DNA from: Parvicella tangerina
Lineage (GTDB): Bacteria > Bacteroidota > Bacteroidia > Flavobacteriales_D > Parvicellaceae
DNA: 64,000 nucleotides
Assembly (NCBI RefSeq): GCF_907165195.1
Contig: NZ_OU015584.1
Span: 3,792,978 to 3,856,977, forward strand
Direction: 5' to 3'
Shown here one piece after another: positions 8,519-62,822 of this stretch (position 1 is its first letter; each line of letters opens with the position of its first letter). The position numbers were made by a program, and so were the translations under genes. The notes beneath the pieces were generated by a model. It did not search any database and was not told the DNA's origin. It saw only the letters and a program-made list of their open reading frames with translations.

Positions 8519-8541
8519 CTGCTATTTTTGAATACAATTGT

Positions 8542-8575
8542 TTGTTTTCTATTAAACAAAACAGTATTAACTTTG
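8542..8575 (+). promoter_or_regulatory. Bacteroidota-type promoter for the lipocalin-like lipoprotein
   Basis: TTG at 8542-8544 and TAACTTTG at 8568-8575 are separated by 23 bp, within the usual 17-23 bp range for the primary sigma factor of this phylum. The start codon follows 27 bp downstream. Confidence 0.6.
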
Positions 8576-8602
8576 TAACTTACAAATCAATAATCCAAAA
8601 AG

Positions 8603-9013: not shown

Positions 9014-9037
9014 GCAGCGCTTAAAGAAAGTTTTATT

Positions 9038-9071
9038 AAAACCCTGATCTTTTAAAAAGTCTCAGGGTTTT
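9038..9071. terminator. Bidirectional rho-independent terminator
   Basis: Perfect 10-bp arms AAAACCCTGA and TCAGGGTTTT (14-base loop) are followed by further T. It lies between the lipocalin-like gene and the convergent DinB-like gene, overlapping the last codons of the latter, and can serve both. Confidence 0.85.
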
Positions 9072-9573: not shown

Positions 9574-9578
9574 TTTTG

Positions 9579-38140: not shown

Positions 38141-38150
38141 CGGCCACATA

Positions 38151-38200
38151 GGCCTCGTAGTTCAACTGAATCTAGTGTGATTTAGTTTCACCACGAGACC
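38151..38200 (+). repeat. Hairpin copying the tRNA-Arg 5' half
   Basis: Bases 38151-38171 repeat the first 21 bases of the tRNA-Arg gene, 54 bp upstream of it, with no mismatch. They do not continue into a tRNA; instead they pair with the following bases 38179-38200 to form an imperfect stem of 22 positions (about 18 paired, ends GGCCTCGT/ACGAGACC) with a 6-base loop. It lies between the promoter and the mature tRNA, so it would be in the primary transcript. Confidence 0.75.
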
Positions 38201-38204
38201 AGAA

Positions 38205-38278
38205 GGCCTCGTAGTTCAACTGAATAGAATACCTGATTACGGCTCAGGCGGTTGCAGGTTTGAATCCTGCCGAGGTCA
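38205..38278 (+). tRNA. tRNA-Arg (anticodon ACG)
   Basis: A full cloverleaf: acceptor GGCCTCG with CGAGGTC (one G-T pair), D stem GTTC/GAAT, anticodon stem CCTGA/TCAGG around the loop TTACGGC (anticodon ACG), and T stem GCAGG/CCTGC. The discriminator is A and CCA is not encoded. It decodes CGU/CGC when A34 is edited to inosine. A strong terminator follows at 38281. Confidence 0.95.
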
Positions 38279-41401: not shown

Positions 41402-41431
41402 AATCCGTGCTAGAAATAGTAGCGGCTATCA
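41402..41431 (-). pseudogene. 30-bp fragment of an Rhs core
   Basis: These 30 bases match 59423-59452 in the main Rhs gene at 29 of 30 positions, in the same orientation. They follow the stop codon of the small membrane protein and are cut off by the IS1-like end. This looks like the start of a further core fragment of an Rhs tip array. Confidence 0.8.
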
Positions 41432-41917
41432 CCAGTTGTCCAGCAACTCAGAATTAACAGATTTTGTAGCATTTTTAGTTTTAGCACATCTCCTAAAAAA
41501 ATAGGATACTACGAAAAAAACACCAACGGAACTCCAAAACGAATTTCCTAAATGATGGTTTAATAGTCCTTCATTAATTTCTATTATTTCTGCCATAGTA
41601 TTCATTGAAATTAATTCACACACAATAAGATAAGGAACACATGCCAATATAGTTAGCAAATTTCTTATTCTTTCTGAGATATTCGCCTTAAGTATGATCA
41701 CGGACAACCCTAGAAATAAAATACTAGCAAAAATCCATAAATAAACTTCAGAATCCATCATGAAAATAATCTTTGCAGTATAATAATTTAATATCATAAC
41801 CATCAAAAATACTATTGCAATGAAGCCTGTCAACACAGCAGCGAAGTATAGAACCCAACCTCGTAGCTTTTTTCTTTTGTTGTTATGGAGTTGATTCTCT
41901 TTTAACTTCCTCTCCAT
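41429..41917 (-). CDS. Four-helix membrane protein, candidate Rhs immunity protein
   Basis: 162 residues from ATG at 41915-41917, which overlaps the 3' end of the orphan Rhs tip by 35 bp; a longer frame runs to 42028. Four hydrophobic helices are visible (WVLYFAAVLTGFIAIVFLMV, VYLWIFASILFLGLSVIIL, LLTILACVPYLIVCELI and SVGVFFVVSYFF). Immediate placement behind a toxin tip is the normal position of Rhs immunity genes. The membrane location would suit a toxin acting at the inner membrane or periplasm. No family is recognised. Confidence 0.55.
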   Translation of the reverse strand: MERKLKENQLHNNKRKKLRGWVLYFAAVLTGFIAIVFLMVMILNYYTAKIIFMMDSEVYLWIFASILFLGLSVIILKANISERIRNLLTILACVPYLIVCELISMNTMAEIIEINEGLLNHHLGNSFWSSVGVFFVVSYFFRRCAKTKNATKSVNSELLDNW

Positions 41918-42962
41918 TTTTGTATGTAACTTTATCAGGTTTCGAGTCATCTCCACCTTTTGGTGAATAATCGGCTTCTCGTATTTGCTCCATGAATTGC
42001 CATTCAATATCTCCAAAAAACTCAGCAATTTTCATTAATCCTTTATCAAAAGTGCCTGTTCCTGCGTAGTCAGAAACATTTCCTGTAGCATATTGATGAG
42101 CGAAAGTAGTTTGTCCTTCCCAACCAAAGACGGTCGTGCCAGTAGCACCTGAAAACGCTTTCGCAAGGTTATTAGAACCAGTAGCTCCATTACAAATGTA
42201 TAGTCCAACCACGGCATCTCTATCAAACGCATCTTTATTAAGCCCTTGCACATCTTTAGAACTTATATTACTACCTTCATTCCCACCCATATTATCAGGG
42301 TATCCAGGTGCAAAACCAACACCTGTAAGCCCGTGTCCAAAAAATGCCATATCAGTTATTACATCCAATTCTCTTGATACTGAAGTTTTTCCCGTCTTGA
42401 TATCATCCATCAAAATCTCTTCAAAATTAGGGAAACTCTTAGTGTTAATATAATGAAGTATCTGTTCATCAGCCCATGTTGTGTATACACTTGTTTCAAT
42501 TGCATACGAATCAGCACCCGAATTTAATAGATTCATTTCTTCCTGTAACTCAATAATCTTCAACTCGGATTTCACATATTCTATCATATCTTCCGTGAGA
42601 TAATCATCTGTAATTATTACAGTTACAGTTTCTCCCGAGCTACCTACTTCCTTTAAATAATCTCTATACTGTTTTAGACCTGCATTTACAAACTTAGCCT
42701 TGTCTGCTTGTCCTCCATTATCGGCACCTCCAATAACTACAATTTTCTCGCGACCATCAGGATCTACGTGAATAATCGGTATATTAGAAACAAAATTAAA
42801 TGGCGATTCGTTGGGATATTTTCCAGCTAGTTCGTCAATACTCAACCACCTTCCCAACCTACTATCATACATCCTAGCACCAAAGTCATAAGAATTACCT
42901 CCACCTTTCACCTCATCATCCTTCTCCATCCCATTAAACCCATAACGGCAAAGTCTTGCCAA
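41883..42962 (-). CDS. Orphan Rhs C-terminal tip with caspase-like domain
   Basis: 359 residues. GFNGMEKDDEVKG and RMYDSRLGRWLSIDELAGKYP are the Rhs-associated core, near identical to the main Rhs gene, but no ATG precedes it and a stop lies at 42975; the 42962 start is a TTG, so it is a displaced tip with no barrel. The remaining 300 residues have MAFFGHGLTG near residue 209 and VGLYICNGATGSN near 257, a His-Cys pair like that of CHAT or caspase-fold proteases. Such a tip would become active only after recombination with a full Rhs gene. The toxin fold is inferred from two motifs. Confidence 0.65.
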   Translation of the reverse strand: MARLCRYGFNGMEKDDEVKGGGNSYDFGARMYDSRLGRWLSIDELAGKYPNESPFNFVSNIPIIHVDPDGREKIVVIGGADNGGQADKAKFVNAGLKQYRDYLKEVGSSGETVTVIITDDYLTEDMIEYVKSELKIIELQEEMNLLNSGADSYAIETSVYTTWADEQILHYINTKSFPNFEEILMDDIKTGKTSVSRELDVITDMAFFGHGLTGVGFAPGYPDNMGGNEGSNISSKDVQGLNKDAFDRDAVVGLYICNGATGSNNLAKAFSGATGTTVFGWEGQTTFAHQYATGNVSDYAGTGTFDKGLMKIAEFFGDIEWQFMEQIREADYSPKGGDDSKPDKVTYKNGEEVKRESTP

Positions 42963-43130: not shown

Positions 43131-43523
43131 CTATGCTGACATCAATAAAAAGTGAGCATCAATGTCCAATTTTGAATGTAGTTTTTTTGCTAAGTCAATG
43201 CTTAATTTTCTACGACCAGAAAGCAATCCAGAAATTGAAGCTTCGCTAATATCAAGAATGGCTGCCAGTTGTTTTTGTCTCCACCCTTTTTCATACATTT
43301 TGTAACGTAGCATTTCAGCTAATGACTTCGGTGCTTTCATTGGCATCAACGGAATATCATCCTCAAATTGTTCTGCCATAGCAGACCATTGAGCTAAGTT
43401 TGTTCTATCGTCTTTAGATAGTTTTTCAAACCCACCCAACTTGGTAGCCTTTTGTAATAGCTTCTCAATTTGCTTCATTACTTTGTCGTAATCCGCTCTC
43501 GATGTTATTTGTTCTACTTTCAT
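43131..43523 (-). CDS. HigA-type antitoxin
   Basis: 130 residues from ATG at 43521-43523. The C-terminal helix-turn-helix is GWRQKQLAAILDISEASISGLLSGRRKLS; the N-terminal half is the extension of HigA antitoxins that follow HigB genes in this order. It neutralises HigB and represses the operon. It starts 14 bp after the toxin stop. Confidence 0.85.
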   Translation of the reverse strand: MKVEQITSRADYDKVMKQIEKLLQKATKLGGFEKLSKDDRTNLAQWSAMAEQFEDDIPLMPMKAPKSLAEMLRYKMYEKGWRQKQLAAILDISEASISGLLSGRRKLSIDLAKKLHSKLDIDAHFLLMSA

Positions 43524-43537
43524 AATTCTATCGTTTA

Positions 43538-43831
43538 TCAAACCGTTGCACAATCAATTTTATCATACTCACTATGTGTACCAATAAACCGAATGTATAT
43601 GGTTCTAATGTCAAAAAATATCATGGTAACCAACCTGTAATCATTCCCTTTAATGTTAAACACATATCGGTCATTACCTACTGCATCCACCGAATTAAAT
43701 GTCTTTTTCATTTCTGGGTGGTTCTTCCAATCTGCTTTCTTAGTTAGTTCATACCATCTATTTAATGGTTCAATAGCATCTGCATGTTTAATGCCAAATT
43801 CAACTAAAATAGCCTTTGAAATAATTACCAT
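43538..43831 (-). CDS. HigB-type mRNA-interferase toxin
   Basis: 97 residues from ATG at 43829-43831. The family pattern is complete: LNRWYELTKKADWKN, VGNDRYVFNIKGNDYRL and FIGTHSEYDKID. HigB cleaves mRNA within the ribosome. The toxin gene precedes its antitoxin, the normal HigBA order. Location just inside the candidate left end suggests it helps retain the element. Confidence 0.88.
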   Translation of the reverse strand: MVIISKAILVEFGIKHADAIEPLNRWYELTKKADWKNHPEMKKTFNSVDAVGNDRYVFNIKGNDYRLVTMIFFDIRTIYIRFIGTHSEYDKIDCATV

Positions 43832-43847
43832 ACTTTTAATTATATTA

Positions 43848-43855
43848 CAAATATA
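43848..43855 (-). promoter_or_regulatory. Candidate -7 element for higBA
   Basis: TATATTTG on the minus strand lies 17 bp before the higB start; no matching upstream TTG is seen. Confidence 0.35.
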
Positions 43856-43879
43856 TAAATTTTCTTTCACATCTGAAAT

Positions 43880-44767
43880 TTAACCAAATATTCCAGCATG
43901 TAATTCATTAACTGCATTTCTATGTTCACTACCACCTCCATTAATATATTTTTCAGTAGAACTTGGGTACTTATGTCCAGCCATTACTTGAACATCTTCC
44001 AAAGGTATTTTCCTATCATTGAGCCAATAACTAATCACACTATTTCTAATGTTTGCGGGGGTTAGTTTTGGGTCAACGGCTCCTTGCATAGAAGTAATAA
44101 AACCGTGCAATCCATCTACTGTTAACCTCATCCCCCGCATGGTCAAGAATAAAGTTTTTGTATTGTCAACACTTAGCTTTACTCTATCAGTTTTAATATA
44201 CTTGCTAAGTACAGTAGCTTGTTTGGTTTTCAGTTCCAACACTCTACCTTTGGTTTGCTTGCTCCCTTTTATTCGTATGGTACCAGCATCAAAATCAATA
44301 TCCGAAAGGTTCAATCCAATCAGCTCTTTACTGGTTACACCTTGGTAAATCATTATTCCAATAATGGCTAAGTTTCGTAGTCCCAATTCGCTATACCTTT
44401 CATCACGAATCGACAAAATGACCTCCATTTCATCCATGCTCAATAGGGCATCAAAGTTCTTTCCTGTTGGGCGTTTTTCGGTTATGTAAAAGTACTTGCA
44501 TGGGTGTTCGTGTATCAGCCTTGCATCCAACAAACAACTGTAAAAAGCTTTAATGGCTGCAAGTCTTACATTTCTGTAATTGACACTATCACCCTTGGTT
44601 TTTAGTTTCAGTAAATACCCCTCAATATCAGCCAATTTTAAGTTTATATAATTGGGGTAAACTTCCATAAATTTCACAATCATTCTTTGGTAAGAATCGG
44701 CAGTTTCTTTTGAATAGAAGTATCTTAAATAGGCTTCTACTTTAGGCATTAATTTATCTGTTTTCAT
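43880..44767 (-). CDS. Tyrosine recombinase-like protein, catalytic set incomplete
   Basis: 295 residues with an N-terminal SAM-like core-binding region and a C-terminal catalytic-fold domain. Of the six expected residues, the first Arg is replaced (GVTSKEL where GLRxSEL is expected) and the HxxR motif is ANIR, with the Arg kept and His lost. The later GH and the nucleophile Tyr in STEKYI remain. It overlaps the upstream recombinase gene by 4 bp (ATGA). It is likely a partner subunit of that enzyme rather than an independent recombinase. Confidence 0.8.
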   Translation of the reverse strand: MKTDKLMPKVEAYLRYFYSKETADSYQRMIVKFMEVYPNYINLKLADIEGYLLKLKTKGDSVNYRNVRLAAIKAFYSCLLDARLIHEHPCKYFYITEKRPTGKNFDALLSMDEMEVILSIRDERYSELGLRNLAIIGIMIYQGVTSKELIGLNLSDIDFDAGTIRIKGSKQTKGRVLELKTKQATVLSKYIKTDRVKLSVDNTKTLFLTMRGMRLTVDGLHGFITSMQGAVDPKLTPANIRNSVISYWLNDRKIPLEDVQVMAGHKYPSSTEKYINGGGSEHRNAVNELHAGIFG

Positions 44768-45690
44768 ATCGAGTAATAGTTTTTAATTTTTCTTCTTTTG
44801 GCGTATATCGAGCTGGTGTCAACAAAGGAATGTCCTAAGAACTGGCGTACATAATCGTAGGTTTGTCCAGCATCCAGCAAATGAGTAGCAATCGAGTGTC
44901 TCAAACAATGGAGCGTTATTTTTTTTGCTTTCAGCTCTTCGCTGTTGGTGCGTTCAATAACCTTTTTCAACATCCTATTAAGTGAACCTCCTGTGTATGC
45001 TCTACCATTGGGTTTAATGAAAAAGTGAGGGTCTCCCGTTTTGGTCCATTTCTGCAACTTCATTCGTTCAATGCTGTATTCTCGTAGCACGTTTAGGAAA
45101 AAATCACTTATTGGAATGGTTCGGGTTTTGTTGTTTTTAGCCTTCGTTACGGTTACTATTCCTTTGGAATAATTTATCTGAAAATCCAGCAAATCAGCTA
45201 ACTCACTACGTCTCATTCCACAACCATAGGCTAACGCAATTATGGCTTTTTCAATGTTGGTGGTACAGCTTTTAAACACCTGTTTTACCTCATCGGTAGT
45301 GAGTATTTCACGGACCAAACTAAACTCACTTTTTGTATCATCACTTTCAATTTTTACATTGGCTGGAATCGGCAAAGCTTTTGTTGTTTGTCTCCCTTCT
45401 AACATCCTTTTTGAAAGCATTCGTAATGTACTCATGTTATCGTTAAGTGTTCGTTGTGAAATCTTACCCTCACCTCGTTTTTTAGGTCGGTAGCTGAGGT
45501 AATGGTAATACTCTCCCATAATCTCGTTAGTAACCTTTTCCAAGTGTTTTACTTGTTGTTGCTCTAAGAATAAGAGAAACTCTTCTACCTGTGCTGAGTA
45601 GTGGTCCCCACTTTTAATAGACTTGGTAGCCCTAATGTGGGTAGTAAAGTCCTTTTGTATGTTTATATAATATGTCGTTTTTAATGTCAT
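44764..45690 (-). CDS. Tyrosine recombinase/integrase
   Basis: 308 residues with the full set: Arg in CGMRRSEL near residue 165, Lys in VTKAKNNKTR, HCLRHS, LGHS and a Tyr in SSIYAKR. It is likely the active integrase of the surrounding element. Its stop overlaps the start of the degenerate partner, so the two are made together. Position about 1.5 kb from the candidate left attachment repeat is compatible with integrase function. Confidence 0.9.
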   Translation of the reverse strand: MTLKTTYYINIQKDFTTHIRATKSIKSGDHYSAQVEEFLLFLEQQQVKHLEKVTNEIMGEYYHYLSYRPKKRGEGKISQRTLNDNMSTLRMLSKRMLEGRQTTKALPIPANVKIESDDTKSEFSLVREILTTDEVKQVFKSCTTNIEKAIIALAYGCGMRRSELADLLDFQINYSKGIVTVTKAKNNKTRTIPISDFFLNVLREYSIERMKLQKWTKTGDPHFFIKPNGRAYTGGSLNRMLKKVIERTNSEELKAKKITLHCLRHSIATHLLDAGQTYDYVRQFLGHSFVDTSSIYAKRRKIKNYYSI

Positions 45691-45773: not shown

Positions 45774-48041
45774 TTATCGGAGTTCAGCTAAGTTTTGGAG
45801 AATCATGTTTTTAATGGACTCCATCTCTGACCAGTAAACAATCTTATACCTATACCCCGTGTTTTTGGCTCCTTCTTGCTTAATAAACTCGTGGTTGACC
45901 AAAGTTTGTAAGTATCGGGTATTGGTTGGCTTTGGCACTTTGAGAGCTTCTCTAATTTCCAATGCGGTAAACGTGCTGTTTTTGCCCTTGGGACTATTCA
46001 ATGCTAACTTTTTAAGGTTCTCAAAATAGTCTCTGGTATTGGTGTTCAGCTCATCCAAGTTGACCAGTATGGTGTCCAAAAACAAATCAATTCCACGTTC
46101 AATGTCTGCTGTGGTTACTATGACCCTCCCTTGCTCATCCTTATCTCGCTGGTGTTGGTGGAACAAGGCTATAATGTTGACAAAGTGCATCAACTGGGTG
46201 GAATAGGTTCTTGCATTGGGTATGCTGTTGGGTAGTCGTAAGCTTAACGCAAATGGGTTAACTACTTCCAATGGGTGGAGGTTATCAATCATAAATTGTA
46301 ATATCTCCATTGCTTTAACTTCTTTTACCTCATCGACTATTCCCGCCATTTTTCTACAATCGTACTCCATTAGTCGGTCCATCTGTGTGGCTGTTGTGTC
46401 CAAACCAAGCAGTACCGTTTTTGGCTCATTGTCAAAATATTTTTTGCTATTGTTACAAGCTCCAATACTTGAGGTATGCCCTGTTACATCTTGGTGGGTA
46501 GTGTATAATATCCCGTTATCTCCCTTTTTGGGGGCATCAATTTTCAATTCTCCCTTAGCTTGTAGCTTCTTAAGGTCGGCAATTGCTTTACTTGACGTAA
46601 CACCCGAATAATCTGGAATAACTAACAATTTTCTATCAATCATCGTATTACCATAATATCGAAATGACCGAGAGGTAGTAAGGTCAATGGCGTATCGCTC
46701 ATGGGCTGGAATAAGATTAGCAATTTTATTTACCAACTCTGCACCCATTATGTTCTCATTGCTTTGTATCACAGCGTGTAAGTTGGACGAAAACTTGTAA
46801 GAGCTTGCAATAAGAAACAGTATCAATCTGGTCTTTTCTTCTCCAACTATTCCAGCATCACCAATCAAATTATTTACCTCATCGAGTAAGTTTTCAGACT
46901 GCAATAAGTCTTTGGCTTTCCCTATCAGTTTGGTATCATTCCCTTTTGGCTTTAGTCCTCTTCTCTGGGCTTTGTTTCTTCTGAACTGTTGTAGCTCTGT
47001 GGTAATGAAGTTCAGCTCTTCCACGGCATGGGCATAGTTGAGATTTTTACCCTCGGTCCAGTGGTATATCTTTTCCTTGGTTTCGTTGGAATCCATTAAG
47101 TCCAATCGCCCTCGCCATACGTCTGCATCGAAGTCGTTCTCAATCTGAAATTGCATAACCAATTGACTTGGGTTCGCTGGAATATCTCCATATATTTTGT
47201 AGGTCAGCTCTGTACCCACAAATAAAAACTCGTCTTCTGAAATGACAGAAACCTCGCTTTTAACGGGTTGGTCTTTCGGTTTTGTGGAGCTACTTTTGGA
47301 CATTATCAATGCTTCAATACCGTCCTCGGCATATTTTAAATAAAACTCATTTAAGCTCTCACCATCTGGTAAGTGTATCACGCTTGGAATCGGTAAACTA
47401 TTGTCTCTAAATTGCTGTTGTAATTGTTCGGAATTACATCCCATCAAAATTATTTCTACATCCTTATTTAACCCTTTGAGAGCTGCAATTATATCGAGTG
47501 TCATTTCTCCATCGTGTAGGGCTAAAATGGCATCGGTATTGCCTTGTAATGTGGTCTGCTGAAAGGTGGCTGCCTCAAACTCATTTTGAAATAGAAATAG
47601 TCTCTCGGTGCTTTCCTTTGGGTAGTGTGGGTACACTCCTTTTTTATTCAAATATTCAATGGTCGGAGTTTGGAGCTTGAATCTCAAGGCAAAGTAGTTG
47701 ACCATTTGTCCCGCCTCATCTTTTAGTGGTAAAACAATACCTTCTTTTCCAATGGTCGAATAGGCAAACTCATTCTGTTTTCCTTTGCCGTGTTTGCTCT
47801 TCATCAACACGCCAAGGGCTTCCAAGGCTTTGAGAATCTCTTCTGGTTTTCTCCAATGAAACTGCCCAGAATTATATCCAACTTCAATCGAATATAGGTC
47901 AATCCCCCGTGCTTCAAGGTATTCACGTGGTGCGGTGGTTCTTCCAGCTCTTATTCCATTCTGGAAGCTCTTGAATAGTTCAGACAAATGTTGGTTTAAG
48001 CCCTTGTCGGACGAAACCTTTTTTGTATTTTTGGGTATCAT
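45774..48041 (-). CDS. Primase/helicase-like protein of a mobile element, degenerate ATPase
   Basis: 755 residues. The first third resembles DnaG/Toprim-type primases without a CHC2 zinc finger (EYLEARGIDLYSIEVGYN, then a Toprim-like stretch to about 240). The second part resembles the helicase-like domain of Bacteroidota element primases (TSRSFRYYGN, LKKLQAKGELK), but where the Walker A loop should be, near residue 425, it reads QSNENIMGAEL, with no GK[ST], and the Walker B acid near 475 is LLVIPDYSG. ATP hydrolysis is therefore doubtful. A C-terminal winged-helix-like part follows. It is probably a replication or partner protein of the element. Confidence 0.6.
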   Translation of the reverse strand: MIPKNTKKVSSDKGLNQHLSELFKSFQNGIRAGRTTAPREYLEARGIDLYSIEVGYNSGQFHWRKPEEILKALEALGVLMKSKHGKGKQNEFAYSTIGKEGIVLPLKDEAGQMVNYFALRFKLQTPTIEYLNKKGVYPHYPKESTERLFLFQNEFEAATFQQTTLQGNTDAILALHDGEMTLDIIAALKGLNKDVEIILMGCNSEQLQQQFRDNSLPIPSVIHLPDGESLNEFYLKYAEDGIEALIMSKSSSTKPKDQPVKSEVSVISEDEFLFVGTELTYKIYGDIPANPSQLVMQFQIENDFDADVWRGRLDLMDSNETKEKIYHWTEGKNLNYAHAVEELNFITTELQQFRRNKAQRRGLKPKGNDTKLIGKAKDLLQSENLLDEVNNLIGDAGIVGEEKTRLILFLIASSYKFSSNLHAVIQSNENIMGAELVNKIANLIPAHERYAIDLTTSRSFRYYGNTMIDRKLLVIPDYSGVTSSKAIADLKKLQAKGELKIDAPKKGDNGILYTTHQDVTGHTSSIGACNNSKKYFDNEPKTVLLGLDTTATQMDRLMEYDCRKMAGIVDEVKEVKAMEILQFMIDNLHPLEVVNPFALSLRLPNSIPNARTYSTQLMHFVNIIALFHQHQRDKDEQGRVIVTTADIERGIDLFLDTILVNLDELNTNTRDYFENLKKLALNSPKGKNSTFTALEIREALKVPKPTNTRYLQTLVNHEFIKQEGAKNTGYRYKIVYWSEMESIKNMILQNLAELR

Positions 48042-48123: not shown

Positions 48124-48786
48124 CTATGCTGCTTGTTCGAGCTCAAGCTCATCCTTAATGAGTTTGCGAATCTTCGCTACTGTTCCCAGAGACACATCGA
48201 AAAGCTTCACACATTCTCTGACAGAAAATCCTCTTTTAAGTCCTTCTATTACTTTAGGGTACTTAGACAAAAAATCATCTTCGCTTTCTTCTGTTCCCTT
48301 GTGTCTTCCACAATGAACACCTTTTGCTTTAGCTTCTGCCATTCCCGAACGAATCCTTTCAATCGTATTTCTTCGCTCATTTTTTGCGAACAAGCTCAAC
48401 ATGTGAAGCATCATTTCAGTTTGCATATTCATTTCGCCTTTTTCGTTCAAGGTTTCTGTATTGAGGTCTTGTAGGTAAATGCTCACATTAGAAGAGTGAA
48501 GCTCTTCAACCAATTTCAGCGTATCGAGTGTTGACCTTCCTAATCGTGAAACTTCAGTAACCAGTACTTTTTGAAACTTTCCTTGTTTGGCTCCTTCTAA
48601 CAATTGCTGTACCCCTGCACGTTCTTCATTTGACTTAGCACCACTTATCTTCTCCGTAATTATCTCAACTACATCAAATGAAAATTTATTGGCTATTTTG
48701 GTTAGGTCATTAACTTGACGGTCATAGGACTGGTCAAGAGTTGACACTCGACAAAAAATTGCTGCTGCTTCATTTTTACTTTTCAT
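48124..48786 (-). CDS. Serine recombinase (resolvase/invertase family)
   Basis: 220 residues. The catalytic Ser is in FCRVSTLDQSYDRQ near residue 15; VTEVSRLGRS and the long helix leading to a C-terminal helix-turn-helix (FSVRECVKLFDVSLGTVAKIRK) complete the small resolvase layout. It may resolve multimers of the element or invert a segment. No obvious res site is visible nearby. ATG at 48784-48786. Confidence 0.9.
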   Translation of the reverse strand: MKSKNEAAAIFCRVSTLDQSYDRQVNDLTKIANKFSFDVVEIITEKISGAKSNEERAGVQQLLEGAKQGKFQKVLVTEVSRLGRSTLDTLKLVEELHSSNVSIYLQDLNTETLNEKGEMNMQTEMMLHMLSLFAKNERRNTIERIRSGMAEAKAKGVHCGRHKGTEESEDDFLSKYPKVIEGLKRGFSVRECVKLFDVSLGTVAKIRKLIKDELELEQAA

Positions 48787-49824: not shown

Positions 49825-51201
49825 TTGAATACAAAAAACACGCATAACATTGTAAAACAACTGAATTTTAGTAAGATAACTGACCAGCTATTAGCTGAAA
49901 ACCGTAGTTATTCGGTCTTTCCAAAAAATGCCAAATCTAACATTATAGCTTTGTTGGCTATTACTTGTGGATTAGGATATAATGAGGCTATTAACCTTAA
50001 ATGGGGTCATATAATAACCTTGGATAGCCGAGGACAACCAAAGGTCAAACGAGAGTTGGAAAAAATCAGAAACTTTGCTATTCCGATAAGTGCTAAACTA
50101 CATTCACAAATTCAAGCCGTTTACCAGTCTTTGAATTATCCGAGTCTCGATTCCAAGATATTTGACTTGGGTAAGATGCCCAATTATTGGTTGTCTATTA
50201 ATATCTCTCTTGGAGTTCATAATCTTAACAATAAGACTTATACTGAGCTAAGAGACGACACAATAACCCAGCGGATTTTTGGACATAGAGTCATAGAGAC
50301 TTGTGGGATAAGTAATGATACAAATAGATTTCTAAAGAGACATTTTAAACTTAAGGATAATGATGAGGTTTTTAGATTTCTTGGGTATGATACATTACCA
50401 AGCTTCCAAATTTCAAACCTATCATTAGTGGAAGGTGATAGGAATGGTCGCAAGTATATTTATGGTAAAGCGAGTCAGTTTCTTGAGGAACATAAAAACT
50501 TTCATTTACGCCATCCTCGGACAAAAAAGAGGTATCCATTTTTACATTTTCAAGTATTTTACGAATTTCTATTACAAACGAAGTTGAGCAATAAACAGAA
50601 AATAGATTACTCAATAAAATCTTTGTTACTGATTAGTCTTACCAATGGTGTTCGTATGGCTTCGTTGTTAAGGCTTAAATGGAGCGATATAATGCTCTAT
50701 AATGCGAGTGAAAAGTATTATTCATTTAAGACCAATTTTCATTTTGAAAGTAGGGATATGGTATTGAATGAAGGGCTGATACAGCAGTTGTTTTACCTTT
50801 TTACAAAAGTATTTGGCCATCCTTCCACTACCGACCTAACCAAGAATAAAATAATCTTTGGAAAAGGGTTGGATTTGGAAGCAAATGTCTTTATAACCAA
50901 TAGAGGATTACCTTTAAAACAGTCAAGTTTAAGTAGAGAATTAAGAAACGTACTAAACAAATTAGAGTTCAACTTCGTTGATGATTTTACGATGAACTCT
51001 ACATTGATAATGTATGGTAGAAGAGTAATCGAAATTATGGGGGTTCATCCCCCGACTATTAAAGCTTTAAAGGAGCGATTGAAGTTTAGAACTGTTCGTG
51101 AACTTTTTGATTTTCTCGAAATAGATGAGTTAAAAGGAAATGATGGTTCTCCCATAGGGACTTATTCATCTCCTTTTGAGCAAATCTTGTACGATATTTA
51201 A
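49825..51201 (+). CDS. Internally duplicated tyrosine-recombinase-like protein
   Basis: 458 residues. No in-frame ATG precedes the conserved part and a stop lies at 49813, so TTG at 49825 is the start. The two halves are related: AITCGLGYNEAINLKWGHI (about 48) with LISLTNGVRMASLLRLKWSDI (about 275), and FGHRVIETCGISNDT (about 151) with YGRRVIEIMGVHPPT (about 404), each then ending in a helical FLGYD/FLEID segment. Each repeat resembles the box I region of tyrosine recombinases, but only the second has the Arg, and neither has the HxxR or tyrosine motifs. It is probably a DNA-binding protein of the element. Confidence 0.6.
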   Translation: MNTKNTHNIVKQLNFSKITDQLLAENRSYSVFPKNAKSNIIALLAITCGLGYNEAINLKWGHIITLDSRGQPKVKRELEKIRNFAIPISAKLHSQIQAVYQSLNYPSLDSKIFDLGKMPNYWLSINISLGVHNLNNKTYTELRDDTITQRIFGHRVIETCGISNDTNRFLKRHFKLKDNDEVFRFLGYDTLPSFQISNLSLVEGDRNGRKYIYGKASQFLEEHKNFHLRHPRTKKRYPFLHFQVFYEFLLQTKLSNKQKIDYSIKSLLLISLTNGVRMASLLRLKWSDIMLYNASEKYYSFKTNFHFESRDMVLNEGLIQQLFYLFTKVFGHPSTTDLTKNKIIFGKGLDLEANVFITNRGLPLKQSSLSRELRNVLNKLEFNFVDDFTMNSTLIMYGRRVIEIMGVHPPTIKALKERLKFRTVRELFDFLEIDELKGNDGSPIGTYSSPFEQILYDI

Positions 51202-51647: not shown

Positions 51648-52556
51648 ATGAAAAGACCAATTAATGTGCTTTCACTCTTCGATGGGATAAGCGTGGCACA
51701 ATTAGCACTAAATCAATTAAACATCCGAATTAACCAATATTTCGCCTCTGAAATAGACAATAATGCAATCAAAGTAACTCAGCATCATTTCCCAGGGACT
51801 ATCCAGTTGGGTGATGTACGAAGCATTACTGATGAGGTTATACAATCATTACCACCAATTGACCTAATGGTATTCGGCAGCCCATGCCAAGACCTCTCCA
51901 ATATGAATAAAAACCGCAAAGGATTGGAGGGTGAAAAGTCTGGACTATTCTATGAAGCTCTTAGGATTTTGGAAGCTGTCAAGCCAAAGTATTGGTTGAT
52001 GGAAAACGTGGGTTCAATGTCTAAAAAAGACCGTAAGATTATAACCAAGCTGTTGGGTGTTGAACCATTAGCAATTAATAGTAATCTGACATCAAGTCAG
52101 AATAGAAATAGACTTTATTGGACAAACATTCCAAATGTACAAGTACCACAGGACCGAAAAATAATATTACAGTCAATTGTTGAGGGCGGTTTTGTGGACC
52201 GTAGAAAGTCCAATGCAGTATTAACCAAAAATATACCTCATACAGTTGCTGGACTTAAACGATACTTAACTAAGTCTATTGGAGGTGTTGTGTTTTTGGA
52301 TAAATCGTTCGCTTATGGGAGTAAGGAGGATAAATTAGAAATACTGGAGCAACATAATAATGAGTCAGTAAAACAGCTTTTCAGACCTTTTACCGTTACG
52401 GAGCTTGAACGATTGCAAACGCTTCCAGATAACTACACCAGCTGCGTTCTTAAAAAGACCGCCTCTCACCACACCATTGGAAATGGATTTACTGTCGAGA
52501 CCATAAAGCATATACTTTCTTATGCCGATTTTAATAGTATAGATAATGAGCGATAA
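51648..52556 (+). CDS. C5-cytosine DNA methyltransferase, phage type
   Basis: 302 residues. Motif I LSLFDGISVAQLAL, motif IV GSPCQDLS with the catalytic Cys near residue 83, motif VI MENVGSM, QNRNRLYW and, at the end, HTIGNGFTVETI. The compact form without a large target-recognition region matches DNMT3-like phage methyltransferases. No restriction gene is adjacent, so it is probably an orphan modifier of the element. A short hairpin (TATTG/CAATA) directly precedes the ATG. Confidence 0.92.
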   Translation: MKRPINVLSLFDGISVAQLALNQLNIRINQYFASEIDNNAIKVTQHHFPGTIQLGDVRSITDEVIQSLPPIDLMVFGSPCQDLSNMNKNRKGLEGEKSGLFYEALRILEAVKPKYWLMENVGSMSKKDRKIITKLLGVEPLAINSNLTSSQNRNRLYWTNIPNVQVPQDRKIILQSIVEGGFVDRRKSNAVLTKNIPHTVAGLKRYLTKSIGGVVFLDKSFAYGSKEDKLEILEQHNNESVKQLFRPFTVTELERLQTLPDNYTSCVLKKTASHHTIGNGFTVETIKHILSYADFNSIDNER

Positions 52557-52704: not shown

Positions 52705-53101
52705 TTTGTCAAGGACCTTTTCTAAAAATTGGTCAAAATTTCTAATCGCTATAAAAATCGCATATCGTGTGCTATTACATTAAGATTGGAATTTTGCCTA
52801 TGTAAGAGAGTTTACCAGATTGTTCAATTTGGAACAAGGACCATTATTTTATTTTGATGTACCCAGGGGGACCGTCCACGCCTCTATTAATAATATTTGG
52901 CTATTTGGTACTGATTTTAGCAAAAGTCTCATAGCGATGAGGTGAGAATCATTCTGTGTAAGGTACGGTCATCTTCTATGATATAGAAACTCAAAAAAGT
53001 TAAAAAAAGACTTGCAATATGGTCCTGATAACGGTTATTTTGAGGCTATAGTTATTTACTATTCACTATGTAAAATTGGGTGTTATCATTAATTATGTTT
53101 A

Positions 53102-53116
53102 TTGGTGATTCACCAA
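53102..53116. promoter_or_regulatory. Palindrome upstream of the polymerase-like gene
   Basis: TTGGTGATTCACCAA is a perfect inverted repeat with 7-bp arms and one central base, sized for a dimeric DNA-binding protein. It overlaps the outer arm of the hairpin that follows. Confidence 0.55.
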
Positions 53117-53160
53117 CTGGGTTCCAGATGGTATTATGCTATCTGGTTGCTCCCCCAGTT
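53115..53160 (+). other. Nested hairpin upstream of the polymerase-like gene
   Basis: Outer stem AACTGGG/CCCAGTT (53115-53121 with 53154-53160) encloses CCAGAT/ATCTGG (53124-53129 with 53141-53146). No T run follows, so it is not a typical terminator; a leader RNA structure is more likely. Confidence 0.55.
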
Positions 53161-53202
53161 AAATAAATGGAGCGATAATAACAAAGGAGCAATACGTTAT
53201 GT

Positions 53203-54768
53203 GTGAACAATCAACAATTGTTTGACTATCTAAAGTCAACTACATCTTATCAAATTAATCCAACATCTGTTGGACTATCAGAAATGGAGGAATCAATTAT
53301 TAAAGATTCAATTAATTCTGTACATCAGAAGTATTCAACTAAAACAAACAATCAATTAACAAGCATCATATATGTTACTAATAATAAACAGTATGATAAA
53401 TTAAAAGAATTACTTGATTTAACAGGTGATACAGATGACTTTTGCCAATACAATATTGAGAATGATTATGCCAGAATTGCGCTATTATTTCCCAATGTAA
53501 ACTCAATACTAATTCCCAAAAAAGCAAAGCGAAGCATATCCAGATATGTGCCTAAACATCTACTAAGAGAAATTGACTCAGATGTAAATATAGCTATCGA
53601 GAAGTGTTTGGTATTCCTATCCTACCTTTCACCCACATACTATATGGAAAACAAGTGGAAGCCCCTAAGTTCAATAAGGCTACATGAACAACTAAAAAAT
53701 GGAGCTGACAATACATATACGTACAAAGCCATTATTAAAGCTTTAAAACATGGCACAAAACAAACTGGACCGATTATCGAAGTACTTCAAAAAGAGAATG
53801 GGACTGAACTATACGAGATTGGTAAATCATCCAAACAATATAGGCTAACAGAAGCTTATTTAGGGGCTGGCTTAGAGGAATATCTACTCCAAGATGAAGC
53901 AATTATCCAACAACGAAACAAAACGTTTTACAACGCTTTATTTGAAGCCCAGAACAATATCATCACCAGTAATCTGGTATCGGTTTATCAGCAAATTGAT
54001 ATACCCCAATTGGATGAGGTGGTAAAATACGGAAAACAGCTAACGAGGTCTAACTATAGGACAAAAAAAGGCAAAATACTCACTATGAGAAATAAGCACC
54101 CGAATGACTATTGGAGAGATGCTAACAATAGAAGTTTTGTTGAGGATAACGTTGAGCTGTACAAATTTCTAACTGGTCGTGGGTATATGATTCCTGTTAT
54201 AGGCAAATTATCCTCTGGTGGTCGTGTTGTGGACTCTTTCAATTTGATGCCATCGTGGATTAGGTCTATGGTCAAAATAAAAGGAGAACCAATTGTGGAG
54301 TGCGACTATAAAGCTATGCACCCCAATTTGGCATCCAAGTTATATTGTGGTACAGGTCGTCATATTTCGCATCAAATTGTTGCCGATTATTTGGATGTTG
54401 ATATCTCGGTAGCAAAACGGGAGCATCTGTCGTTTTTCAACAAGCCATATTATCCAACCAAAAAACTGTATGAAAAAGGTTCAATGGTACAATCAAGCGT
54501 GTACGAGTTTTATAAGGAAAATGAGCCAGAAATGTTAAGCCAAATAGAGCTACACAAACGAGATAGTGGGTATGTTGCAACTGCTCACCGACTTTTTGCA
54601 TTGGAAGTGGAGCTGATGACCGAAGTAATTAAACAGCTTAATGAATTAGGAATATATGTGCTGTATGTTTACGATGCTTTATACTGTGCCGAAAGTGATA
54701 GTCAAACTGTAAAACAAATAATGAATGATGTTGCGGAGTATTATGGGGTAAATACTTGGGTTGAATAG
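53203..54768 (+). CDS. Stand-alone family-A-polymerase-like palm protein
   Basis: 521 residues from GTG at 53203, behind a strong AAAGGAG. The last 190 residues have the palm layout of family A polymerases: GRVVDSFNLMPSWIRS, then motif A ECDYKAMHPNLASKLY (Asp about 368), a motif-B-like AKREHLSFFNKPYYP, and motif C VLYVYDALYCAESD (Asp about 491). There is no exonuclease or known N-terminal domain. Such palm proteins occur on viruses and plasmids without an established role. Replication of the element, or RNA-primed synthesis with the upstream noncoding stretch, are possibilities only. Confidence 0.65.
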   Translation: MNNQQLFDYLKSTTSYQINPTSVGLSEMEESIIKDSINSVHQKYSTKTNNQLTSIIYVTNNKQYDKLKELLDLTGDTDDFCQYNIENDYARIALLFPNVNSILIPKKAKRSISRYVPKHLLREIDSDVNIAIEKCLVFLSYLSPTYYMENKWKPLSSIRLHEQLKNGADNTYTYKAIIKALKHGTKQTGPIIEVLQKENGTELYEIGKSSKQYRLTEAYLGAGLEEYLLQDEAIIQQRNKTFYNALFEAQNNIITSNLVSVYQQIDIPQLDEVVKYGKQLTRSNYRTKKGKILTMRNKHPNDYWRDANNRSFVEDNVELYKFLTGRGYMIPVIGKLSSGGRVVDSFNLMPSWIRSMVKIKGEPIVECDYKAMHPNLASKLYCGTGRHISHQIVADYLDVDISVAKREHLSFFNKPYYPTKKLYEKGSMVQSSVYEFYKENEPEMLSQIELHKRDSGYVATAHRLFALEVELMTEVIKQLNELGIYVLYVYDALYCAESDSQTVKQIMNDVAEYYGVNTWVE

Positions 54769-57779: not shown

Positions 57780-60700
57780 TTAGTCATTTGTTTCCGTTCC
57801 AGCACCTTTGTTTGATACTTGAGTATCTAAATATTCTTGGGCAGCTCCTTTATTCATTTTGGTTTCTGACGTTACGGTCTCTGTTTCGAGTTTCCCTTTT
57901 TTGCTTAGGTTAAGTAAATCATTCCACAACTCGTTAGGAGTCACAACATACTGGGTAGAATATCCAGGGATATTAATTGTCATATCAAGTGTCTCACTAT
58001 AGTAACGTGGAGCCAAAGGTTGTTTTCCTATTGACTTTTTTATTACTCCAACTTCCAATAAGCCTTCCATAGCTGTAGTAGAACAGTTATATGAACCTGG
58101 GATATACACTTTTTCTTCCGATTCAACCTGAGTATTGATTCTGTTTATATAAGATGCCATTGCTAAATCTGCCGAAATTTCTTTTTCTGTGTATTCTGTC
58201 TTAGCATCATCACTTGTGTTTATCTCCATATACTCAAGAGTTATGTTGCCATAATCTTCTTTGTAGTTTTCTTCATATTTCTTTTTAAATTCTTCAGGAC
58301 TATCATAAACCGCCATTTTATAAAGTCCTCGAACCGCATTTTGTCCTCTTTCTGGCATGGGTTGTCCTGCTGGATATAGCTCTCCTACTAAAATCCTTCC
58401 CGTTTTTTTCCAAACACCCTCCTCAACTTCTTCATATTCATCAACAGCAATAACAGTATGCCCACTCGACCAAACATTCTCTCCATCCTCTGTTCGTTTA
58501 GTAATTCCCGTTTTTTCCACAAAAACGTAAATATCATTACCTCCTTCGTCAATAATATAAGTTGGCGAATTCATGGCAAAAGCATAGTTTGAAGTAGATG
58601 GGTATTTACGATAATAAGGGTCAATACTCAACCACCTACCTAAACGAGGGTCTTGCATCCTTGCCCCATAATCATAGCTATTTCCTTCTCCTTTCACCTC
58701 GTCATCCTTCTCCATCCCATTAAATCCGTAACGATACTCGCCCACAGGCACGGTGCAGGTTTCTGTGATGACTTCTACGTGTTCTAACTTCAGGTTGTCT
58801 ATTGTTACATCAGTAGGTACACCTCCAAATAAGGTCCACAAGGTAAAGCTACCATTGGCAGTAGTGGCTGTAAAGTCTATTACCTGAGTTCCTGCAGTGG
58901 TGTAAGTATTAAACACACCCTGTGAACTCGATAAGTATACCGGTCCGTTGATATCGGTAATATCAAACGTAATGCGGTAGTCTTCTCCTGCGGTAAGCAA
59001 TCCACTCCAATCCTTCTGGGCGATGATCACCGAACCTAAGAAGAACCCTAATCCTTGAGAGTTGATAAAGTATTCCTCTAATGCCGTTACTTCTCCTGTG
59101 CCAAACAGGTGATTCCAATCGTCTGCTTCGTCTCCTATCATATAGGCACCTCCATTGCTCGATAACGAGAAATCATCGTCATCAACTACCGTAGTCTGCT
59201 CGTTTACGTCAATGTGTGTGACTTCTGTTCTGGTAAAGTTACGTTCGTACAACTCCACTCCAAAGGGTGAGTAGTCCGTAGCCTTGGTAATCTCTGGCTG
59301 GTAATAGTCAATAAATCCGTTGCCGTCATCATCGATCGGATGCTTACGGTCGGTAACTACAGATAAGACATTACCCAAATGGTTGGTGCACTCATATTGC
59401 TTCATTCCTAGCTTATGCTCAAAATCCGTGCTAGAAACAGTAGCGGCTATCATTTCTTCACACGTTCTATCCATTCCTACTCTAGAACTACCGTAAATGT
59501 TACGCTCTATCAGAGAAAATTGAGTGCTTCCTACCGTTCCGGCAGAGTTCACAGCGTTATTAACTACAGGGCTTGCTGGCAAGCCTAAGTTACCATTGTT
59601 TGCAGCTGCTATCTGGTTGGTGACCCAAGCTGGATAACTTTGCGCATTAATGGCTGTCCAAACAGCTGGTGACAACTCTGAGTTATCTACCATCCAATCT
59701 CTAATCAGGTTATTGGGATATCCTGGCGCATGGTTCACCAAAGCAATCAATACATCGTCTGACAACGGTGTGGATGCCGTTACCACTTGATCTACTACCC
59801 AATTGGGTAACCCCGCAGCAATCATATCCAACAAAACAGCATCTGTCAATGGTGCAGCACCCACCAGGTAATCTCGCTTGGTGGCATTGTTCATGGCTGA
59901 GTTAGAAATGGCAATCAACACATTGTCTGAAAGAGGTGTATTATTCGCTAAAACCTGATTGATTACAGCGTTTGGTCGGCTTGATTGAATAAGTGCAATT
60001 AGCGTGCTTTCGTTCAATGCTCCTGCAGCAATGAGGTCGTCTCTCAGTACATTATCGGGAATACTATTGTCTCCAATGTCTGCCACAAGGCTTGATTGAT
60101 CAATCTCTTCTTCTGTATACGTATAATCGTAAACGGCCATCACATTGCCTTGCGCATCACGGTTGTAATAGGTCGTTTTTTCCCAATCTACAGGGTTGTT
60201 AGGATCAAACAGGGCTGTACTTCCGGTTGGGAAGCTTTGGTTACCATAAATGTGTTTAGCAATACGGTTACCCATCGGGTCGTAATCAAATACTAAGTTT
60301 TTAGCCTCACTACCCGGAGCGCGGATAATGGCAGAAATTTTCCCATCTACTCGCCACCTGACTTCATAAATCTCCTCTGAGTAGTCTTGCACTAATTGCC
60401 CAATTGCATCGTACTTGTAGTTATTCCCTTCTTCTCCGGGAAGCACATCATACAGTCCATTATTGATTTTTTCAGAATTACTCTCAAATGGCTCCATGTC
60501 TTCTATATCATCATCATACAAAGCTTCTTCAATGGCCTGTGCTCCATCAGAAACACTATATAAGCGGTTTTGTAAAAGTCTTTGTTGAGGACTTCCATCC
60601 GTTGCGTAATGATACTGTAGATTCTCGATGTAGTTACCTTCGTGGTCATAACGATCTTGATGAACAATATTACCGCTAGCATCGTATACAAACGCATTGT

Positions 60701-62822
60701 AATACTCATACTGATAATCGTTATCTAAACTCCAAACATTGTACGTGTTGATGCTATTATCTGGGTTGATATTAGCGATGTCCATATCCACATTTTGGTA
60801 AGCTTTGGCCTCTAATAAGCGGTTCAGCTGATCGTAGTTGTACGCAGTTGCCTGTGGTCGGATATTTGGTGTTATTCCACCTGCAGAAGCATATAACGTA
60901 GGTTCGGTAATAGTCGTTACCATACCTCCTATATTTCCGTTATACAGGTCTTTTCTACTGTCTAACACATCACTTGTTCCTCCGTTTGGATTAAATACAC
61001 TGGCAAATCGGCTACCTTCTTGCTGCCACTTATTGACGTAGTCTATCGGACTGTAATCGTCTTCATAATAAGTCAACGAGAATCCATAAGCATCTCTAGC
61101 AAAATGGGCGTTTACATTGGTTCCATTAGCAATACCGTCTTGTCCGACATCGTTGTTTGGATTCAACAGGTCTGAATTCACGCCTTTTAACCAACCTTGC
61201 AGGGTATACACATAATCCATCCCCTGCACGCTGTGTTCTCCAATTTCCACTCGTGCTAGCGGCCCATGGTCATAATAGATGTACTTAGCATCTTGATCCC
61301 AAGTTACCTCATCGTGCGAGGTTTCCACCGTGGTAATTCTATTGTCTCCATCGTACTCATATCGGTGATACCATGCATCTACTTCTCCATCTTGGTAAAC
61401 CACTTCATGCACGTTTCCGCTGATCAAATCGTAATCGTAATCCATGCGTTTGTATTGCAGCGCCTGAATGTCTGGGTTACTATTGTTCCCTAGTTCTTTG
61501 TTGTGCTGAATCAACGTTTTCACATTTCCATGAATATCGTACTCATAGAACGTTCCGTAACTGTAGGTATCGTTGTTACCGTCATACACTTTTTCGTACG
61601 TCACCGCACTGATACGTTTTCTTAGGTTCAACTCATTTTGTGTAAATCCTGGAACTGCAGTAATTCCGATAGTTGTATTGCTGATTTCATGATCGTAGTA
61701 AGATCTTGTTACTTCTTGACGAACTCCCGTACCATCTACAATCCAGTTGTTCAACTTGGCATCGTCAATCACCTTGGGATTATACAGACCACTCACATAG
61801 GTTCCAAAAATATCGCTGTGCTGGTTGGCAGGGTTTGTGTTTTCCACTTTCTCTCCTGCCTCAACCACGCGTCCTAATTCATCGTAAAGCGTATAACTGT
61901 ATCGCTTTTGGTCTGCATTGTATTGCTTGCTGTTTTGCGAAACCACAATTCTTCCTAAACGATCGTACCAGAAGTAAGTTGAGAACTCATCACTTTCGTC
62001 ACGCAAGGTACGCGTATAATTTCTGGTAGCAGGTGCACCAGTAGTATGTCTACCTCCTAATACTCCCTGGTAACGTGTAGCAAAATCAATTGCAAAGATG
62101 TCTTTGTCGTTGGTATTGAAAGCGTCATCTGTATCTTTAATTCCCCAGGTTACTCCTGTGATAAAACCAGTTCCAGATAAGGTCACGTTTACCGTTTTTA
62201 AGAGTGTTCCGTTCGTTCCAACAGCATATCCGATCACGTCATCGTAGAAGTAGACATCATAAAGGTCTGTTCCTGGTGGATTAGGAATCACAACGTTACT
62301 GCTGATGTCATCCACGTCTGTCAACGACTTAATGTAGATCATGCTCTCATCGTTTCCTACAGCCACGTACGTGTCATTTCGTTCAAAAGCATACACTCCA
62401 CGTAGTTTTTGTGTTCCTGTAGGAATATCCGCATTGGCTACTGCATTCCAAGTTAACCCTCCATCTGCCGTTAGCCAAACCCTACCGTTTGCATTCGGAC
62501 CACCTACAATGATTCCATTATTTGCATCTGAAAAGGTAATATCATGTAACGGATAATTCCCTGACGTAGGAATCGCTGATGCACTCAAAGGTGTAGTCAA
62601 ACCACTATTGGCTTTAGCCACATACTTTTGATTTCCAACAATGATTGCATCCGAGCCTGACTGTGTGTAAACTGCATTTACATTCGGGAGCGTTCCACCT
62701 GGGAATCCACCGGATGGTAATACCGTAGTCCAGCTAAATCCTCCATTATCTGTGTACCTAACGGTGTAGTCATCTCCAATTACATAACCATTGGTTATCG
62801 TGCTAAAGTGTACATCCCTCAA
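57780..62822 (-). CDS. Rhs-repeat protein with C-terminal toxin-like tip, 5'-truncated
   Basis: 1680 residues from a TTG; no ATG precedes it and a stop lies at 62874, so the true N-terminus is missing. Order: a beta-propeller-like region with Ycf48-type blades (about 1-260), YD-repeat barrel (from about 275), an inserted helical repeat region (about 910-1077), a jelly-roll-like domain (about 1190-1350), the Rhs core GFNGMEKDDEVKG with RLGRWLSIDPYY (about 1360-1420), and the tip. The tip has SSGHTVIAV and, 130 residues later, YNCSTTAMEGLLEVG, a His-then-Cys order like permuted NlpC/P60 proteins. An immunity candidate follows. Confidence 0.75.
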   Translation of the reverse strand: MRDVHFSTITNGYVIGDDYTVRYTDNGGFSWTTVLPSGGFPGGTLPNVNAVYTQSGSDAIIVGNQKYVAKANSGLTTPLSASAIPTSGNYPLHDITFSDANNGIIVGGPNANGRVWLTADGGLTWNAVANADIPTGTQKLRGVYAFERNDTYVAVGNDESMIYIKSLTDVDDISSNVVIPNPPGTDLYDVYFYDDVIGYAVGTNGTLLKTVNVTLSGTGFITGVTWGIKDTDDAFNTNDKDIFAIDFATRYQGVLGGRHTTGAPATRNYTRTLRDESDEFSTYFWYDRLGRIVVSQNSKQYNADQKRYSYTLYDELGRVVEAGEKVENTNPANQHSDIFGTYVSGLYNPKVIDDAKLNNWIVDGTGVRQEVTRSYYDHEISNTTIGITAVPGFTQNELNLRKRISAVTYEKVYDGNNDTYSYGTFYEYDIHGNVKTLIQHNKELGNNSNPDIQALQYKRMDYDYDLISGNVHEVVYQDGEVDAWYHRYEYDGDNRITTVETSHDEVTWDQDAKYIYYDHGPLARVEIGEHSVQGMDYVYTLQGWLKGVNSDLLNPNNDVGQDGIANGTNVNAHFARDAYGFSLTYYEDDYSPIDYVNKWQQEGSRFASVFNPNGGTSDVLDSRKDLYNGNIGGMVTTITEPTLYASAGGITPNIRPQATAYNYDQLNRLLEAKAYQNVDMDIANINPDNSINTYNVWSLDNDYQYEYYNAFVYDASGNIVHQDRYDHEGNYIENLQYHYATDGSPQQRLLQNRLYSVSDGAQAIEEALYDDDIEDMEPFESNSEKINNGLYDVLPGEEGNNYKYDAIGQLVQDYSEEIYEVRWRVDGKISAIIRAPGSEAKNLVFDYDPMGNRIAKHIYGNQSFPTGSTALFDPNNPVDWEKTTYYNRDAQGNVMAVYDYTYTEEEIDQSSLVADIGDNSIPDNVLRDDLIAAGALNESTLIALIQSSRPNAVINQVLANNTPLSDNVLIAISNSAMNNATKRDYLVGAAPLTDAVLLDMIAAGLPNWVVDQVVTASTPLSDDVLIALVNHAPGYPNNLIRDWMVDNSELSPAVWTAINAQSYPAWVTNQIAAANNGNLGLPASPVVNNAVNSAGTVGSTQFSLIERNIYGSSRVGMDRTCEEMIAATVSSTDFEHKLGMKQYECTNHLGNVLSVVTDRKHPIDDDGNGFIDYYQPEITKATDYSPFGVELYERNFTRTEVTHIDVNEQTTVVDDDDFSLSSNGGAYMIGDEADDWNHLFGTGEVTALEEYFINSQGLGFFLGSVIIAQKDWSGLLTAGEDYRITFDITDINGPVYLSSSQGVFNTYTTAGTQVIDFTATTANGSFTLWTLFGGVPTDVTIDNLKLEHVEVITETCTVPVGEYRYGFNGMEKDDEVKGEGNSYDYGARMQDPRLGRWLSIDPYYRKYPSTSNYAFAMNSPTYIIDEGGNDIYVFVEKTGITKRTEDGENVWSSGHTVIAVDEYEEVEEGVWKKTGRILVGELYPAGQPMPERGQNAVRGLYKMAVYDSPEEFKKKYEENYKEDYGNITLEYMEINTSDDAKTEYTEKEISADLAMASYINRINTQVESEEKVYIPGSYNCSTTAMEGLLEVGVIKKSIGKQPLAPRYYSETLDMTINIPGYSTQYVVTPNELWNDLLNLSKKGKLETETVTSETKMNKGAAQEYLDTQVSNKGAGTETND

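Follow-up and report, generated by a model that had tools for sequence, protein, structure and literature searches.

The window analysed here, a 64,000-nucleotide stretch of the Parvicella tangerina genome, contains an integrative element in which the gene for a predicted polymerase-like palm protein is directly preceded by a short structured leader (Table 1). The palm gene is present in one copy in the complete 3.98-Mb genome. Its neighbours include several recombinases, a C5 cytosine DNA methyltransferase and a 755-residue protein (cluster c20) that has only weak HTH matches in Pfam and that, by reading only, could be primase-like. Related C5 methyltransferases lie upstream of palms in other loci (numbered with an L; L045/L082, L076, L085 and L092) and, in L124 and L210, they precede the leader. 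The ends of the element in the window were not resolved by empty-site comparison, as the relatives are too divergent.

Table 1 Features of the palm gene, its leader and the surrounding element in the window
Feature	Position	Strand	Details	Basis or occurrence
Two phage-integrase-family recombinases of the element	43880..45690	-		PF00589, 5.6e-19 and 2.3e-26
755-aa protein	45774..48041	-	cluster c20	also in palm element L039 and leader-initiator element L125
Serine resolvase/invertase	48124..48786	-	cluster c4; recurrent palm neighbour	phrog_125, 6.5e-46
Tyrosine-recombinase-like protein	49825..51201	+	cluster c21; common to the L045 element	weak phrog_1 integrase match
C5 cytosine DNA methyltransferase	51648..52556	+	just upstream of palm	found again in related elements (as shared cargo or backbone)
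Candidate promoter of leader/palm transcript	53012..53040	+	TTGCAA-N17-TTATTT	read in sequence; weak in the window copy
Leader RNA core	53115..53160	+	P1 53115-53121 with 53154-53160; P2 53124-53131 with 53139-53146; J 53147-53153 (TTGCTCC)	
Copy 1 (GGAGC), complementary to J	53169..53173	+		J/copy complementarity co-varies over 18 J classes
Copy 2 (GGAGCAA), full complement of J	53186..53192	+	10 nt before GTG start	J/copy covariation; minimum-free-energy fold
PolA-like palm protein, probable winged-helix N terminus	53203..54768	+	521 aa, GTG start	ORF list, alignment, predicted structure
N-terminal domain, probable winged helix	53464..53952	+	aa 88-250	AF2 pLDDT 90.5; weak structural matches
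Predicted PolA-like palm/fingers	53956..54765	+	aa 252-521; GGR 339-341; motif A D368/H373; O-helix K405-L409-N413; motif C Y490-D491	VIA Z 13-14; conserved columns; profile alignment to wider phage family

Several other features of the region were recorded. A HigB/HigA-like toxin-antitoxin pair (43131-43870) has a 96% identical copy at G000:C1:2622834-2623816. A 22-bp perfect direct repeat (38150-38171 and 38204-38225, 54 nt apart) covers the 5' end of a tRNA-Arg gene and is a possible attachment-site scar. RHS/YD-like genes (41402-42962 and 57780-62822), which have an RHS-core-like 114-nt repeat in common (81%), flank the element region and perhaps represent an interrupted or duplicated RHS locus. 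Elsewhere in the same genome, L050 (G000:C1:3632211-3633506) encodes another zinc-ribbon-like tyrosine recombinase with a small HTH partner, a type of pair that also adjoins palms in L012, L013 and L046.

Nothing in Pfam, NCBIfam, PADLOC or PDB sequences matched the palm protein significantly, and the PF00476 (DNA_pol_A) profile was unmatched at E ≤ 10. Neither an exonuclease domain nor a reverse-transcriptase profile was found in Pfam, NCBIfam or PADLOC, and the only family matched was phrog_4756, annotated as function unknown (hmmscan, 2e-9). An AlphaFold2 model built with 45 aligned sequences reached a mean pLDDT of 82.8, with values above 90 for most residues beyond position 90. PolA polymerases were the top matches in a Foldseek comparison with the PDB (E = 4.8e-6), and VIA returned Z scores of 13-14 against PolA polymerases, Pol theta and mitochondrial RNA polymerase over ~245-270 residues (rmsd 3.5-5), folds not listed in the VIA tables not being taken as absent. 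The order of secondary-structure elements is likewise PolA-like, with a motif-A strand and helix, an O-helix, a Q-helix and a motif-C hairpin, and among viral structure models the protein matched a 403-residue 'putative DNA polymerase I' of a marine phage (E = 5.8e-15). No direct sequence or profile link to solved structures was found, and profile-profile comparison with cellular PolA (18 sequences) gave only 0.2%. We assign the protein, with high confidence in the model, to PolA-type palm and fingers without an exonuclease. The preliminary description had proposed a palm carrying the motif A and motif C acids and lacking an exonuclease, to be checked by structure prediction; the predicted fold and the invariance of D368 (motif A, ECDYKAMHPN) and D491 (motif C, YVYDAL) in all 45 sequences bear this out. 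Its further statement that no other known domain is present does not hold, as residues ~88-250 form a separate, confidently modelled domain (pLDDT 90.5 when modelled alone). The matches of this domain are weak (best Foldseek E 0.34; Z about 5) and mostly to winged-helix proteins, including ORC, Fur/PerR and plasmid Rep/Pi initiators, suggesting that it is probably a winged helix.

Compared with family A DNA polymerases (DNA polymerase I, Pol theta and T7 DNAP), the protein has the palm/fingers fold and the two catalytic aspartates in common, but its polymerase module is only ~270 residues long. It also departs from DNA polymerase I at several key positions: H373 replaces the steric-gate Glu, L409 and N413 replace the O-helix Phe and Tyr, and YDA (Y490-D491-A492) replaces HDE, residue equivalence being based on motif position and secondary structure rather than an inspected superposition. 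Structural scores against single-subunit RNA polymerases (T7, mitochondrial) and DNA polymerases were tied (Rpo41, Z 14.2; PolA/Pol theta, 13.7), although the palm protein is much smaller than the former, matches them nowhere in sequence and has no recognised promoter-binding domains. The invariant columns of the 45-sequence alignment are D368, H373-P374-N375, K405, L409, N413 and D491. The deviating steric gate, O-helix and motif C imply that the enzyme could have another chemistry or be a DNA-binding relic.

Relatives were gathered stepwise from whole genomes, from named genomes (49 loci, mostly from Flavobacterium and other Bacteroidota) and from viral contigs (11 loci); some loci from the two genome sources belong to the same strains and were not counted as independent, and the sampling is Flavobacterium-rich. 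As the preliminary description had anticipated, similar palms occur on phages and plasmids, and also on integrative elements, although phage and plasmid records held no close relatives of the window protein itself. The wider family includes ICP1 ORF100, a protein of Shewanella phage KASIA and plasmid proteins of Thioclava and Sphingomonas, aligned by profile with 96.5% probability. For phrog_4756, to which Vibrio phage ICP1 ORF100 belongs, hhalign gave 96.5% (E = 8e-10) against ≤0.5% for unrelated ORFs; overall identity is very low, but the core is the same: GGR, a D-x4-H motif A, an O-helix Arg or Lys with Asn at +8, and a [HY]D[AS] motif C. His at D+5, the position of the steric-gate Glu in DNA polymerase I, is common to this wider family. 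Motif C in palm relatives is HDS or HDA, as in T7 RNA polymerase. A second palm type (L015 and L048) has Gln at D+5, and the L210 protein represents a third by motif and profile (60.7% versus ≤0.5% for non-palm ORFs). Used as a genome search profile, phrog_4756 gave no match, but a control was equally silent.

Palms of the wider family, among them L202 (Vibrio phage ICP1 ORF100) and those of other Vibrio phages, were present in 166 phage records, sometimes with two or three copies per phage. Some palms are fused to homing-endonuclease-like domains (GIY-YIG in L071 and L074; HNH/NUMOD in L077), and in L042-L044, L065-L067, L070, L073, L075 and L086 a GIY-YIG gene directly follows a phage-type palm.

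In at least 22 of 57 loci, many of which are truncated, recognisable recombinases are encoded no more than about 5 kb from the palm. L038 and L040 are compact elements of ~6.6 kb consisting of a resolvase, the palm, one or two cargo genes, a small gene and an integrase, and the palm is the only replication candidate between resolvase and integrase. Phage palms are found in replication neighbourhoods: in L110 the palm is followed by a clamp loader (2.5e-51) and an exonuclease (5.7e-17), in L107 by a DnaD-like loader (8e-26), and some lie downstream of a Sak4-like AAA protein. Palms also often adjoin type I R-M, C5 methyltransferase or SIR2-HerA-like genes. By reading, L014 (palm at 8495-10108), with SIR2-like, HerA-like, AlbA/Schlafen-like and RadC-like genes, has a defence-island setting.

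Upstream of the palm gene, the preliminary description had noted a structured region of 498 bp. As one structured RNA this region is rejected, since it folds no better than shuffles (z = -1.37) and is unmatched in Rfam; what stands is its last ~90 nt (53115-53192), which form a conserved, covarying RNA of two stems and a single-stranded segment, J. Leaders of relatives have the same architecture: P1, 1-2 nt, the hairpin P2, J (6-8 nt), P1', a spacer of about 8-10 nt that is often A-rich, copy 1, a second spacer, copy 2 and the start codon. In P1 and P2, 90.7% of cells are paired, double changes occur in 11 of 13 pairs, and 50 double-change cells were counted against 16.6 in shuffles, on a MAFFT alignment not fitted to the structure, the structure itself having been read from the same sequences. 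Complementarity between J and the copies, summed over 18 J classes, reached 112 against 75.8 ± 4.1 when permuted, with none of 20,000 permutations as high. Matched changes are seen between L015 and L048, where J goes from TTCTTGC to TTCTCGC and both copies from GCAAG to GCGAG. In the minimum-free-energy fold of the window leader, J is base-paired to copy 2, and in L077, L079 and L084 copy 2 overlaps the start codon. Relatives also have TTGACT-N16-18-TATATT-like promoter sites, mostly 25-42 nt before the outer stem, with at least 10 of 12 matches in 67% of cases versus 10% of shuffles; the candidate in the window scores only 9 of 12, and another candidate is located 25 nt ahead of the outer stem. 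An out-of-frame upstream ATG, found in 11 of 23 leaders with inconsistent placement, was rejected as a universal feature.

Because the structure was read from the sequences in which covariation was counted, independent covariance-model matches matter more. We built a model (R1) in which only P1 and P2 are paired and which is blind to J/copy pairing; its E-values are rough. In the window it matched 53116-53183 (43.5 bits), the sole match in the genome. Across 150 Flavobacterium and 395 Bacteroidia genomes, all 14 matches with E < 0.002 precede either a palm (11) or an initiator-like gene (3); 8 of these loci, including the window, are training sequences or their close kin, and 6 (L015, L048, L124, L125, L127 and L210) are outside the training set. 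On the earlier suggestion that conservation of the pair be examined, the proximal leader, rather than the full 498 bp, is conserved with the gene; neither of the outcomes that the preliminary description had named as refuting it, a missing palm fold or an upstream region not conserved with the gene, was observed. The leader is found immediately before two palm types of far greater divergence (L015/L048 and L210), and in L124, L125 and L127 it precedes palm-less proteins of 240-274 residues. Such proteins match families of DnaD-like loaders (1.3e-7), O-like initiators (3.8e-7) and replication initiation proteins (3.7e-4). The same methyltransferase and 81-residue protein lie upstream in L124 and in the palm element L210, and the c20 protein is common to L125 and the window, which indicates that related elements place different replication genes behind the leader. 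The leader serves swappable replication genes, which comprise three or more divergent palm types and several initiators lacking a palm. R1 was absent upstream of phage-type palms and of the palms of some type I R-M elements. A weak, AT-rich match within an ORF (L126, E = 0.007) was rejected, as were 45 stretches from a DNA pattern scan of viral contigs, which yielded no credible covariance-model match. Other similar-looking sequences (for example GTCAAGACA...TTTTGAC) lie upstream of R1-less palms in L065-L067, L042-L044 and L081/L090/L093, and are perhaps different leaders.

The reading that we favour, and consider probable, is that the palm protein is an element-encoded replication polymerase whose translation, and hence the copy number of the element, is set by a pseudoknot-type leader. 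The N-terminal winged-helix domain would probably bind the element origin, where the compact palm and fingers, with no proofreading, would make DNA, whether a primer, an initial stretch or the lagging strand. In the palm mRNA, the 5' leader of ~90 nt would be a cis-acting translational switch: pairing of J with copy 1 would complete an H-type pseudoknot with P1 and P2, and the alternative pairing of J with copy 2 would mask the start. The balance between the two, set by the palm protein itself or by an antisense RNA, may keep synthesis of the replication protein, and with it copy number, low. The cis-regulatory part of this proposal is preferred mainly because copy 2 lies near or over the start codon and because the leader is common to initiators. 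Another reading, which we think rather unlikely, is that the palm protein binds the leader of its own message, or a product processed from that leader, with J or the neighbouring hairpin serving as template or primer in element replication; the protein would be an RNA-assisted PolA-like initiator-polymerase with altered sugar selection (the His steric gate) and a primase-independent start, and palm-less initiators would also have recruited the leader.

The preliminary description had likened the locus to polymerase-plus-noncoding-RNA systems, and DRT and retron systems do have a polymerase gene with a structured RNA just upstream. In such a complex the leader would be processed to a stable, palm-bound RNA with J as template, primer or guide, as in telomerase, retrons or DRT. 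A single-stranded J of 6-7 nt between two stems, with complementary copies nearby, would suit this, as would the association of the leader with highly divergent palms. However, the palm is predicted to be PolA-like and is probably not a reverse transcriptase, copy 2 lies near the start codon (overlapping it in the three loci given above), and the same RNA precedes palm-less initiator genes. An obligate retron- or DRT-like complex is disfavoured for this last reason, and we regard a polymerase-RNA complex in general as unlikely. The leader might instead act as single-stranded or cruciform DNA, as an origin hairpin or recombination site. The elements are mobile, and folded single-stranded DNA origins and attachment sites exist, but promoter-like sites lie upstream of the leader, it keeps a fixed place by the start codon, and both the length of the spacer and the strand-specific order agree with an RNA pseudoknot, making a DNA structure very unlikely.

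Two further explanations concern the protein. It could be a degenerate polymerase with a purely structural or DNA-binding role, in effect a plain initiator or regulator. The deviations in the steric gate, O-helix and motif C and the presence of palm-less winged-helix proteins in the same slot are in line with this, but D368, D491, K405 and GGR are invariant or nearly so across very divergent relatives, and we hold such loss of activity to be improbable. Alternatively, it could be an anti-phage or abortive-infection polymerase with an autoregulatory leader, itself being defence cargo of the element, as the frequent neighbourhood of restriction-modification, methyltransferase and SIR2-HerA-like genes would suggest. 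We found no PADLOC match, however; palms are also found among the replication genes of phages and in elements devoid of defence genes, and their leader is shared with replication initiators, so that a defence role appears quite improbable. Occurrence of the same RNA before other replication genes argues instead for the replication reading, in which palm and leader probably constitute a copying module, under its own regulation, that serves phages and mobile elements.

Control of a replication gene by a leader pseudoknot has precedent in the IncI-type plasmids. In the repZ leader of IncI/IncB plasmids (ColIb-P9), as outlined in PMC10724649 (citing Asano and Mizobuchi 1998), a loop pairs by the rep start codon. 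The window-type leader likewise adjoins palms or initiator-like genes and has a J predicted, by in silico covariation, to pair near the start codon; relative to the IncI-type leader as outlined there, it differs in structure, in having two complementary copies and in having a polymerase as the replication gene. IncI-type systems are further marked by an antisense RNA and a coupled leader peptide; as regards a leader peptide, the leaders analysed here have only the inconsistently placed upstream ATG noted above. As far as the libraries searched show, the leader RNA, its two-copy design and its polymerase partner are without precedent, and we found no description of the palm/leader pair in the literature.

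These results join two unannotated things, a widespread phrog_4756-like palm family that includes ICP1 ORF100 and a leader RNA that has no Rfam family. Because His replaces Glu at the steric gate, the choice of nucleotide can be tested directly. In Bacteroidota phages and integrative elements, the leader RNA is common to interchangeable replication genes; it gives the palms a functional context and may offer a compact handle on copy-number control in Flavobacterium and its relatives.
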